From a virus, in IMG/VR virus record IMGVR_UViG_3300027832_000106, positions 1 through 23,987 of that record: a stretch of 23,987 nucleotides of DNA; one strand, written 5' to 3'. A program made the position numbers and the translations under genes. Under the pieces are notes generated by a model that did no database searches, was not told the DNA's origin, and saw only the letters and a list, made by a program, of their open reading frames with translations. Positions 16,457 through 20,576 of this stretch are shown piece by piece (within the stretch, counting starts at the first letter, position 1; each line of letters opens with the position of its first letter).

Positions 16457-16720
16457 TTATGGTACAGGTATTTTACTTACTAAGGCGTTAATAGCTTGGT
16501 AAGAGCCATCACCTTTAGCAATACTAGTGGTTAAAGAGCAGTCTGGCCCTACACTAATCTCACCATCAGTAATATCTCTAGAAGAGGAGATCTCTAGTAT
16601 ACAACCTTCTGCAGTCTTTTCAAACCGATAGGCGGCTCCGCCACCGGCGGTATTTCCTAGTGGGGATAGAGCACAGCTTGATAAAGCTAGCACTAGTAGT
16701 AAACTGATTATTAGTTTCAT
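16457..16720 (-). CDS. Small lipoprotein, possible outer-membrane lysis (spanin-like) or surface protein
   Basis: An 87-aa protein with a type II signal peptide: MK, a hydrophobic core of Leu/Ile/Val, and the lipobox L13-S-S-C16, with Ala at +2, which favours outer-membrane sorting. The mature part is Gly/Ser-rich, with two further cysteines (GCILE and PDCSL) that could form a disulfide. The start is fixed by an ATGA overlap with the phospholipase stop; an ATG ten codons upstream is not needed. It is the last gene of the late operon. The location fits an outer-membrane spanin or superinfection-exclusion lipoprotein, but no inner-membrane spanin partner is seen and the mature part is not Pro-rich as Rz1 usually is. 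Confidence 0.8.
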   Translation of the reverse strand: MKLIISLLLVLALSSCALSPLGNTAGGGAAYRFEKTAEGCILEISSSRDITDGEISVGPDCSLTTSIAKGDGSYQAINALVSKIPVP

Positions 16721-17565
16721 TTCTTTAAAAACTCCATTGTGGAAATCCAACCTGCCTGTATAAGTCTATCAATCTCTACTTTATTTATATCAAAATCCAT
16801 AGCCGACATTCTTCCACAATCTACTACGATTGTTTTATTCCAGTCTTTCTTTGATATATGGTTGTTCTGTAGTCCATCGTATATTATATTAAATAAACTC
16901 ATAGAATACTGTAAGACATTATCTCTTCTATATTCTTTAGTTCCAGTTATTTCTTCTGTAGTATCTAATCTAACACCTATAGTAGTGCCTACACCATCAA
17001 AGAAGTGAATAGGGTAGTTATTTAAAACTCCCCCATCTACGTACATCTTACCTTTATAGGTTACTGGTGTAAAGAAGAAAGGAATAGCCATAGATGCCCT
17101 AACTGCTATAGTTATAGGCATATCTGGGTAGGTTTCATAGGAGAATACCTCTTGTACTCCTGTATCTAAGCAGGTAGCCCCTACATAAAGATCTTTAGAA
17201 GTATCAAGGTTTTTAAGCTCCGAAAAAGTACAAGCCCTAGATCCAGTATAAGCTTCTAGAAAATCCTCTATCCAGTGAGTAAAGAAATCCCCCTTATTCT
17301 TACCGTATTTAGTGGTTAGTCTATATAGATCACGGAAGGCACCAAAAGAGTCATCTTGAAACTCATTATAATCTATAGCTTTAAGTGCTTGTTCCATCTC
17401 TTGTGGCGTCATTCCTATTGCTAGGAATAATGCCGCAATAGAGCCTGCGGATACCCCTAGTACCTTATCTATACTTTCTAGCTTATCGTATGCGTTAAAG
17501 GCGTGAAATACTCCAGCGTAAGCTACGCCTTTTACTCCTCCGCCTTCTAGTACTAAGTTGGTCAT
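16717..17565 (-). CDS. Patatin-like phospholipase
   Basis: A 282-aa acyl hydrolase of the patatin family, expected to cut acyl chains from membrane phospholipids. The oxyanion loop is LEGGGVKG (residues 6-13). The nucleophile elbow is G37-V-S39-A-G41 with catalytic S39, and the dyad Asp is D177 in VDGGVLNNYP, the usual DGG/A-N-P context. There is no signal peptide or membrane helix, so it is made in the cytoplasm. It overlaps both neighbours by four bases (ATGA), placing it in a late operon after the tail fibres and before the lipoprotein. It may weaken the membrane at lysis, act in entry as a virion component, or counter a host defence; the sequence does not decide. Confidence 0.93.
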   Translation of the reverse strand: MTNLVLEGGGVKGVAYAGVFHAFNAYDKLESIDKVLGVSAGSIAALFLAIGMTPQEMEQALKAIDYNEFQDDSFGAFRDLYRLTTKYGKNKGDFFTHWIEDFLEAYTGSRACTFSELKNLDTSKDLYVGATCLDTGVQEVFSYETYPDMPITIAVRASMAIPFFFTPVTYKGKMYVDGGVLNNYPIHFFDGVGTTIGVRLDTTEEITGTKEYRRDNVLQYSMSLFNIIYDGLQNNHISKKDWNKTIVVDCGRMSAMDFDINKVEIDRLIQAGWISTMEFLKK

Positions 17566-17872: not shown

Positions 17873-18916
17873 TTAAGACTTAGTACAGATAATCATGTCA
17901 ATGTACTTAGGCGTAAATGTTGCCCCTGCTGTGTTTGTGCTTCCATGATTATGTGCTACCCCACTACCGGAGCTACCGCCAGAGCTAACTCCAAGTACGT
18001 TTTGGCCCCCGGTAAACCCACCAGCACCGTTGTTTCCCGGACCTTGAGAGTTGTTTAAATCTACAAAGACACCAGACGATACTATAGTATGATTATGCGT
18101 GGGCATCTGTGCAATTGTTAAGGCAACCGAGCCTGTAGTATGCGTATGTGATGTACTAAAAGATATAGGACTTCCTACACCACCAACACCACCACCAGTT
18201 CCACTAACAACCCGCAACATAGCGTCATTATTAGTAACATCTTGAGTCCAACCTGTAGGTGCGAAGGCTTGGAAGAAAGCCATCTTAGTACCTACAGCAA
18301 ACCCTAAAGACGTAACAGCTTGCGCTACTCTCTGTGGAGTAAATACTCTATTTGCAGTACTAGTGCCTGCTTCTGCTTCTGCTTGAGAGGCTACAACTGT
18401 TGGAATATTTGCATTTATAGCTTGGAATTTTGCAGAAAGTAAATTACCTCCCTCTGTAATATCTCCATTTCTACCAAAAATGATAGCATCAGACAGGAAG
18501 GATCCAGTATCTGAGTAGGTAGATAACCTTAGGCTTCCTGCTACACTTCTAATTTTCCAGCGTTTTGCATCTGTAGGGGCATCATCCTCCCAAGTCTCTA
18601 AAGAAGGTTCCGCGTTTTTTACTTGCCAGTTACCTGTGATAACAGCATTAGCAGCTAGCCTACCGAAAGCCGTTTCCGCGTATGTTCCTAGCGTATCGGC
18701 GTTTGCTGCGTTAATCTTATTCCAAGCAGAAGTACCATCGTATATGTATAGCTCGTCTAAGTCCTCCCTCCAACAAGGAGTACCTTCGTATAGAAGTGTA
18801 GACGGAAATACCGTACCAGCATTTAAAGATCTAAATGTTTTAAAGTTATCCATCATTTTACCATAGGATACGTTTAAGGTTTGTGTGTTTGGAAATTCTG
18901 TGTAATTTTGTGCCAT
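17873..18916 (-). CDS. Tail fibre B with collar-like, His-rich receptor-binding tip
   Basis: A 347-aa tail fibre. Residues 1-70 (from MAQNYTEFPN to about YDGTSAWN) are a near copy of the same region in tail fibre A, probably the virion-attachment adaptor. The middle is a shaft region. The C-terminal part has the phage collar/fibre-tip signature: APTGWTQD, then HTHTT, MPTHNHT and AHNHG His clusters in Gly/Ser-rich sequence, ending FTPKYIDMIICTKS. HxH motifs bind metal in T4 gp37-type needles. The ribosome site is weak (AGAGAA); the AATAAATAATGGCAC context is the same as for tail fibre A. Confidence 0.88.
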   Translation of the reverse strand: MAQNYTEFPNTQTLNVSYGKMMDNFKTFRSLNAGTVFPSTLLYEGTPCWREDLDELYIYDGTSAWNKINAANADTLGTYAETAFGRLAANAVITGNWQVKNAEPSLETWEDDAPTDAKRWKIRSVAGSLRLSTYSDTGSFLSDAIIFGRNGDITEGGNLLSAKFQAINANIPTVVASQAEAEAGTSTANRVFTPQRVAQAVTSLGFAVGTKMAFFQAFAPTGWTQDVTNNDAMLRVVSGTGGGVGGVGSPISFSTSHTHTTGSVALTIAQMPTHNHTIVSSGVFVDLNNSQGPGNNGAGGFTGGQNVLGVSSGGSSGSGVAHNHGSTNTAGATFTPKYIDMIICTKS

Positions 18917-18941: not shown

Positions 18942-19241
18942 TCATACAATTGCCAGCGCTTCACCAACAGAAGTATATCCTAGCCTAAAAATAGTACCGT
19001 TAGGATCTTCTCTTAATTCATACTGTGTAAAGGTGCTGACATCATCTATGTCTTTCTCCTCGACTACTTTATGAGTTGCATCTTCAACACCCTCGGCGGC
19101 AGTAGCTAAAGCTCCCGTAGGAAACCACGCGTCCTTGGTGTCAATCAGTGTTTGTAGGTATGCTTTAGTTTCAGTAGGAAAATCCACTAATAGATTCTCT
19201 ACATCCTTCTTATTGTTTATATACTTAGGGAAATTTTTCAT
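18942..19241 (-). CDS. Hypothetical protein (99 aa) between the two tail fibres
   Basis: It starts at ATG 19241 after an AAGGCGG site. It is a soluble, acidic protein: a helical N-terminal half (VENLLVDFPTETKAYLQTLIDTKDAWF) and a strand-rich C-terminal half (TQYELREDPNGTIFRLGYTS). It is not the four-helix Avd accessory protein of DGR systems, being shorter and mixed in secondary structure. Located right after the lectin-tipped fibre, it could be a fibre chaperone or a small tail component. I do not recognise a family with confidence. Confidence 0.75.
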   Translation of the reverse strand: MKNFPKYINNKKDVENLLVDFPTETKAYLQTLIDTKDAWFPTGALATAAEGVEDATHKVVEEKDIDDVSTFTQYELREDPNGTIFRLGYTSVGEALAIV

Positions 19242-19279
19242 AGTACCGCCTTGAGTTGTTTCATAATATCCTTCTACCC

Positions 19280-19295
19280 TTTCACTTTCGTGAAA
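19280..19295 (-). other. Hairpin with GAAA loop just after the variable region
   Basis: On the coding strand TTTCAC-GAAA-GTGAAA forms a perfect 6-bp stem with a GAAA tetraloop, beginning four bases after the fibre A stop. No T tract follows, so it is a poor terminator. In the Bordetella phage DGR a stem with a GRNA-type loop lies at the same place, just past the variable repeat, and is needed for target recognition. The stem here is shorter and poorer in GC than that example. Confidence 0.6.
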
Positions 19296-19298
19296 CTT

Positions 19299-20576
19299 TT
19301 AAAATCTTGAACTCGCAGGCTCCGCGACCCCACGCGAACCAGAGCTGGAACCGAGAATGAGAGGCGAAGCATTCCAAAGCGAGCCACGCGAACCGCAGCT
19401 CACACCGGCAGCCCAAAACCCACCCAGCCGAGCGCGGTTTGGTGCTAAGAAGTGTTGACCACCCACATCAGCATCGTTAGCATCATAAGCATTAGCCCAA
19501 GTGGCCGCACTCTGCCCACCTCCTTGGTCACGCGACCATTGCCACATTACGCCGCATGTATCTTCAACACCTTCATCAGAAATCATGCGTCTACCTGCTG
19601 TGTCCACATGCCCCGTTGTTGTGCTGGGATCTGCTGAACCCGTAATGTTAGTCGATTGATTAGCACCGATTGATGCCGCCACAAATTCAATTTGTGACAT
19701 TGATTTCATCTTTTGTCTGCCAAACCACTGCTCAAATTTGTAAGCATGGAACGCTGGCGCTGATACCCCGTCCGCTATAGTGCCACTATTAACTGATACT
19801 AATGTTGTGCCTGAAACAGAAGATAAGTAAATATCCACCCATACACCAGACGAGGAGAGGATAGTCCCCTCCTGTCTTGCGGATGAACGATTAAACCTAT
19901 CCCATACTGATAACGGAAGAATATCACCAGCAAGATAACCTGTAAGTGCGTGGCCTGCGATTATACCTACTGCAACAGCTAAACAATGAAACCCACCAAT
20001 CTTACGAGAGTTGGTTGCTGTGTAGCCTGTAGGAATAGTAGAGTTATTTGATAGTACGACTCCACCAGCTTCTAATGTATACAAGTAGAAGTCTTTACCT
20101 GCTCTGTTTGCGGCGGTAGCAAAGGACGTGTCATCCCAGTTACCTGCTGTACCTAGTGCTAGTGTTGAGCCTGTTATAGATACAGATGTGGTGTCAACAC
20201 CCGCAACAACATCAGGAACAACTAGGCTTGTTTGTGAGCCTGATAGTAATGCTGACATATCGAGGGCTGTGGATACACGATTAGACTTCTCAGCATCAAG
20301 CTCATTAATAGCCGCTTGAACATTGGTTGCTGCTATGTTGCCTGCTGGGGTGTTGGCTAAAGCAGAAGCATCTAAGTTATTCCAAGCAGATGTACCGTCG
20401 TAAATATAAAGTTCATCTAAGTCAGTCCTCCAACAAGGAGTACCATTATATAAGTCTGTAGTAGGAAAAGAAGTTCCAGAATTCAAGGATCTTGAAGCCT
20501 TAAAGTTGTCTATTATTTTTGTATGAGAAGCGAGTATAGGTTCCGTACTTGGAAACTCTGTATAATCTTGTGCCAT
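19299..20576 (-). CDS. Tail fibre A with C-type-lectin-fold variable tip (DGR-target type)
   Basis: A 425-aa receptor-binding tail protein. Residues 1-70 form the adaptor shared with tail fibre B. The C-terminal ~130 residues carry the formylglycine-enzyme/C-type lectin pattern of DGR target proteins such as Mtd: GRRMISDEGVED, CGVMWQWSRDQ (341-351), HFLAPNRARLGG, then the variable stretch from residue 385 with GFW, two GSRG turns, WNAS and a terminal GVAEP. DNA for the tip (about 19310-19450) is much richer in GC than the AT-rich surroundings. The ribosome site is weak; the start has the same context as the paralogue. The lectin fold is well supported by motifs; active diversification is not shown, as no reverse transcriptase is in the window. 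Confidence 0.88.
   Translation of the reverse strand: MAQDYTEFPSTEPILASHTKIIDNFKASRSLNSGTSFPTTDLYNGTPCWRTDLDELYIYDGTSAWNNLDASALANTPAGNIAATNVQAAINELDAEKSNRVSTALDMSALLSGSQTSLVVPDVVAGVDTTSVSITGSTLALGTAGNWDDTSFATAANRAGKDFYLYTLEAGGVVLSNNSTIPTGYTATNSRKIGGFHCLAVAVGIIAGHALTGYLAGDILPLSVWDRFNRSSARQEGTILSSSGVWVDIYLSSVSGTTLVSVNSGTIADGVSAPAFHAYKFEQWFGRQKMKSMSQIEFVAASIGANQSTNITGSADPSTTTGHVDTAGRRMISDEGVEDTCGVMWQWSRDQGGGQSAATWANAYDANDADVGGQHFLAPNRARLGGFWAAGVSCGSRGSLWNASPLILGSSSGSRGVAEPASSRF
19314..19424 (-). other. Candidate DGR variable repeat (codons 385-421 of tail fibre A)
   Basis: The 37 coding-strand codons contain only 6 adenines in 111 bases, in an otherwise AT-rich gene. Positions where DGR templates usually have AAC/AAT (after GG, around the W, between GSR turns) hold TTT, GCT, GCC, AGC, TGC, GGC, ATT, GGT and TCC, all NNY codons. 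The invariant scaffold (G-G-x-W, G-S-R, W-N-x-S, G-S-R-G-V) is kept. This is the pattern left by adenine-specific mutagenic retrohoming. No matching template repeat was seen in the window. Confidence 0.6.

Follow-up and report, generated by a model that had tools for sequence, protein, structure and literature searches.

Locus and gene identity

The window, by which we mean the whole viral stretch of 23,987 nucleotides that was analysed, carries a tail protein gene whose 3' end is poor in adenine. This gene, the gene that follows it and the features at and between them are given below.

19299-20576, minus strand: Mtd-type receptor-binding tail protein of 425 aa, predicted DGR target gene (Pfam, PDB sequence, fold and phrog matches)
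19309-19440, minus strand: adenine-poor variable repeat (VR), with its extent set by analogy with the VR/TR pairs of relatives; 6 A in 111 bases and mismatch bias to the adenines of the L051 template (TR)
19318-19328, minus strand: GTCGCGGAGCC, G+C-rich and IMH-like 3' end of the VR (from the VR/TR pairs of L002, L007, L051 and L058)
19280-19295, minus strand: stem-loop TTTCAC-GAAA-GTGAAA with a GRNA loop, putative homing hairpin or cruciform (position, loop and single occurrence)
19238-19264, minus strand: MKQLKAVL (stop), perhaps what remains of the 3' end of a lost reverse transcriptase (RT) gene (likeness to the RT end of L053)
18942-19241, minus strand: 99-aa gene, homologue of the post-RT gene of relatives (identity of 53% with that of L007 and 46% with that of L002)

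The 425-aa product matched the Pfam family mtd_2nd above the cut-off (3.9e-16), PDB chains of Mtd over residues 148-419 (1yu3, E 2.6e-20) and the tail protein family phrog_11262 (1.8e-44), and the mtd gene of Bordetella phage BPP-1 was matched by tblastn, with about 30% protein identity. The best PDB fold matches of an AlphaFold2 model (27 input homologues, mean pLDDT 78) were five Mtd variants, with E values of 1e-20 to 1e-21 and 1yu0 at the top (1.3e-21). Judged from sequence and model together, the product is homologous to the BPP-1 tropism determinant Mtd, and we therefore regard it as an Mtd-type receptor-binding tail protein. On the same grounds, the lectin tip recognised by the first-pass annotation is the C-type lectin domain which is diversified by the BPP-1 DGR. 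No DNA-level relatives of the window were found in the phage collection. The neighbouring 347-aa gene (17873-18916) has an N-terminal region in common with the Mtd-type fibre, with 75% DNA identity over about 211 bp, and probably makes a second fibre that uses the same anchor. A patatin-like phospholipase gene at 16717-17565 (Pfam 2.5e-37) adjoins these tail-fibre genes.

The adenine-poor stretch lies at the 3' end of this C-type-lectin gene. The 111 coding-strand bases of 19314-19424 comprise 6 A, 29 C, 33 T and 43 G, while A makes up 27.7% of the rest of the gene and 111-base stretches on both strands of the window hold 34.5 A on average (sd 6.4). There are 42 such stretches with 10 or fewer A on the two strands, and all 42 fall at this site. 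The depletion reported by the first-pass annotation is thus exact, and the site is the sole A-poor stretch of the window. The rise in GC that accompanied the original proposal is also seen (0.57 at 19300-19499 vs 0.34-0.48 across most of the neighbourhood), as are NNY codons at the variable positions of the lectin fold, where the TRs of relatives have AAY, and an intact scaffold with the codons TGG and TGC GGT TCG CGT kept. Judging from relatives, the VR is probably slightly longer than the A-poor stretch and covers about 19309-19440.

Relatives with the complete cassette

Among the viral contigs of IMG/VR we found 80 loci with Mtd-type relatives. At most of those with enough downstream DNA, an A-rich near copy of the gene's 3' end, the TR, lies within some hundred bases and is followed by the RT; a gene of about 100 aa usually comes after the RT, so that the order is target, TR, RT and 100-aa gene. 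Differences between VR and TR fall at TR adenines in 22 of 23 cases in L002 and in 29 of 30 in L051. Among the near-identical phages L002, L003 and L004 we counted differences at 15-18 sites of the VR, against only 7-10 in all of the remaining 4.8-7.8 kb, a concentration which is the mark of an active DGR. Two further observations concern these loci. About 60 of them share an element, TAGTAG...CGAAAGT or CGAACGT, between TR and RT and 75 nt upstream of the RT start, which is perhaps part of the DGR RNA and is absent from the window; we considered ACGAAAGTGAAAG in the window as the equivalent of the motif that precedes the L002 RT, and did not adopt this because the conserved TAGTAG element is absent. 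Also, six contigs of the Mtd clade (L005, L054, L062, L065, L067 and L069) stop either at the VR or shortly before it, as they should if assemblies are broken by polymorphism in the VR.

The TR of L051, a near relative with the cassette present, served as the reference for the window's own stretch. At codon positions 1 and 2 the window mismatches 23 of the 30 TR adenines and 6 of the 42 other positions (p = 1e-7). The TRs of six further relatives gave the same bias (p from 9e-6 to 1e-9), and none was seen in the 600 nt upstream of the VR.

The homing signals also appear to be in place. The counterpart of GTCGCGGAGCC in relatives is CGGAGCC in the VR and CGGATAC or CGGCTAC in the TR. The stem-loop begins 3 nt past the target stop codon and is the single perfect hairpin with a stem of at least 6 and a GRNA loop on the window's coding strand; 0.065% of shuffles of this stretch yielded such a hairpin. 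Hairpins of different sequence stand at stop+2 to stop+5 in L057, L058, L060, L066 and L006. Homing in BPP-1 needs a hairpin or cruciform 3' of the VR, the stem of which counts by its structure and not its sequence, and phage DGRs have in common 4-nt GRNA loops 4-34 bp from the VR (PMC3240598). Published stems measure 7-10 bp (PMC3240598), whereas that of the window has 6 bp and a lower G+C content. Since the ssDNA folding energy of the stretch is not unusual (z -0.87), stability forms no part of the case for the hairpin, which is made by position, loop and single occurrence; an Rfam search of the window gave no match. Mtd homology, mismatches that concentrate on the TR adenines of relatives and a GRNA-loop hairpin in the right place strongly support the earlier proposal of a DGR variable repeat in a tail fibre, and we consider it almost certain, from the comparison with these TRs, that 19314-19424 is a VR of DGR origin.

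The missing TR and RT

In the window the target is followed by the hairpin and then directly by the 99-aa gene, which starts 57 nt past the target stop and whose homologue adjoins the RT in most relatives. The stop of MKQLKAVL overlaps the next start (ATGA) in the same phase as does the end of the L053 RT, LQKLKEIL (stop). This short peptide was the sole high scorer among the window's 194 ATGA sites, in a comparison over 8 codons for which L053 was picked after looking, and it may be a remnant of an RT.

Part of the same virus is also available as G001, a 38.7-kb contig with 99.88% identity to the window. Because G001 starts inside the tape-measure gene and has no head genes, the virus genome is incomplete. 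In addition to Lambda-like tail genes, G001 (L043, L044) carries a two-gene split DNA ligase and SbcC/D-like, D5-like regulator and NrdA/B-like genes. The first-pass annotation had suggested looking for a template and an RT. On the window and G001, in this incomplete genome, no DGR RT was found with Pfam PF00078 or with an RT profile built here, and an A-tolerant scan found no TR. Scans of 2.9 million viral contigs with TR-shaped patterns gave no template for the window's VR; they returned that VR and nothing else, except for L006/L007 with the first pattern.

Is the tip, then, still being diversified? Window and G001 have no differences in the VR and 28 elsewhere, only 6 of which lie outside the first 5 kb. 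We considered this identity as proof of a frozen tip and found it too weak, since the RT-bearing pair L117/L120 also has no VR differences, at 0.117% divergence. The claim that the fibre is hypervariable at present is nevertheless not supported, given two identical VRs and a cassette that is gone from its usual place and was met on neither contig.

Pairs of RT-less relatives give a different picture. VR divergence in L102/L112 is 0.20 at codon positions 1+2 and 0.02 at position 3, vs 0.05 and 0.15 upstream; for L093/L096 the corresponding values are 0.21 and 0.07, vs 0.04 and 0.16. The RT-bearing pair L083/L085 follows the same pattern, raised in the VR at positions 1+2 and lowered at position 3, which suggests that homing has occurred in the two RT-less pairs since they split. 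For RT-less loci generally, trans supply or a very recent loss therefore has to be taken seriously as an alternative. No RT or TR was found on the contigs of these two pairs (45-123 kb), and it is possible that theirs are trans-served targets.

Other relatives have broken or incomplete cassettes. L066 has kept its TR together with an RT reduced to its C-terminal end, L108 its TR and the first 39 RT codons, and L103 an inverted RT fragment. In L127 there is a scar at which the target runs into the last part of what is the post-RT gene in its relatives, and in L122 the 100-aa gene lies 24 nt downstream of the target. The cassette's place between target and 100-aa gene is taken in L093 by an unrelated open stretch (about 2165-2790), perhaps an HNH-type gene. 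On the 122.7-kb contig of L096, where neither RT nor TR was found, two Mtd-type VRs are separated by about 1.6 kb that includes a homologue of the 100-aa gene. Whole contigs of the RT-less relatives (14-123 kb) yielded neither TR nor RT. In the Mtd-phage tree of the conserved part, the RT-less members are scattered and at least 6 changes are needed. Loss or breakage of the cassette thus appears, from these sequences, to recur among Mtd phages, with the limit that some contigs are fragments and that a remote RT is possible for each.

Discussion

The explanation which we favour, and which we hold to be rather probable, is that the tip is a real DGR VR in an Mtd-type receptor-binding tail protein, orphaned by loss of the remaining retroelement. 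In an ancestor, a TR transcript would have been reverse-transcribed with errors at A and the cDNA would have replaced the VR beside the hairpin, allowing the phage to change receptors. Later, a deletion that began just past the hairpin and finished close to the 3' end of the RT gene would have taken out TR and RT and spared the target, the hairpin and the region where ribosomes bind for the next gene. The tip seen today would then be a single variant passed on like any other gene, and, given a TR and an RT, the orphan VR would still be recognisable as a target for homing. Cassette loss is favoured by the absence of TR and RT between the target and the 99-aa gene, their place in relatives, by the possible RT stub, by the broken RTs of L066, L108 and L103 and the scar in L127, by the scatter of RT-less members on the tree and, weakly, by the identical VRs of window and G001. 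Against it stand the incomplete genome, which leaves room for a remote cassette, the two RT-less pairs that look as if homing continued after their split, and a putative RT stub of only 8 codons.

The same observations bear on a second reading, which we think unlikely but of real weight, namely that the VR is diversified in trans by a TR and an RT in the unsequenced part of the genome, in a co-infecting phage or in the host, with homing directed by the VR 3' end and the hairpin. The IMH-like end and the hairpin are intact, VR divergence resembles homing in two RT-less pairs, the genome is incomplete, and remote DGR targets are known and missed by surveys (PMC8144416). However, neither TR nor RT occurs on 38.7 kb of this virus or on the whole contigs of RT-less relatives, the scans of 2.9 million contigs gave no template, and the VRs of the two copies are identical. 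It is improbable that the target, with its tip already diversified, reached this genome by recombination with a DGR phage and that the lineage never had the cassette. The N-terminal 70 residues do resemble the neighbouring 347-aa gene, at the DNA identity given above, and not those of relatives, which indicates that fibre modules are exchanged; but the adjoining 99-aa gene is the RT-flanking gene of relatives and a possible RT stub remains, and both fit a deletion at the locus better.

An artefact, in which the assembly dropped the stretch with TR and RT on joining VR and TR reads, has very little probability in our view. The region is hard to assemble, given how nearly VR and TR agree and that several contigs of the clade break off within the VR. 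Yet the same junction is present on two contigs, though these may be related assemblies, a collapse of VR and TR would spare the RT, which is absent here too, and a different short sequence occupies the junction. Finally, an ordinary fixed lectin domain of odd composition which was never diversified would agree with the failure to find a template or RT for the window's copy, but we give this reading hardly any credence: the mismatches are biased to TR adenines with the TRs of seven relatives and not upstream, the A-poor stretch coincides with the VR, the GRNA-loop hairpin is present and the protein belongs to the Mtd family.

The scattered counterparts of the window's locus invite a broader, more tentative proposal. 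Perhaps TR and RT are repeatedly shed by Mtd-type phages while a diversified tip and the homing hairpin stay, which would make orphan VRs a regular condition of their receptor-binding proteins, reached either because tropism switching is turned off after a good variant has arisen or because retroelements of co-infecting phages or hosts serve them in trans; we would put this at somewhat below an even chance. The signature and hairpin without the cassette allow a frozen good receptor binder to be tested against trans-shared diversification, and the scattered losses with broken intermediates in Mtd phages make the question testable on existing data.

How does this locus compare with known systems? 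It is like the BPP-1 DGR in the Mtd domain and fold, the C-terminal lectin VR, the VR 3' end and the downstream GRNA-loop hairpin, and unlike it in having neither TR nor RT at the locus and in a protein identity of about 30%. With the uncultured Mtd-type phages L002-L004, L051, L053 and L006/L007 it has in common a target of 60-70% identity, the VR layout and the downstream 100-aa gene, but these phages have VR, TR and RT in a row, and L002-L004 show current VR variation. The DiGReF collection includes DGRs in which mutation has cut the RT short and others in which one copy of two has lost it (PMC3521204); most of these cases involve a transposon or a nonsense or frameshift mutation, or the genome has another RT that works, whereas the window lacks the TR-RT unit altogether and a second copy was found neither there nor on G001. 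In a large survey of DGRs, remote targets escape detection (PMC8144416), and because large surveys look for a target beside an RT, targets that have lost the RT go unseen. Truncated or lost DGR RTs were thus already known (PMC3521204), and what we add is a clean Mtd-type orphan VR, with the homing hairpin kept and the cassette apparently removed, together with signs that such losses recur.
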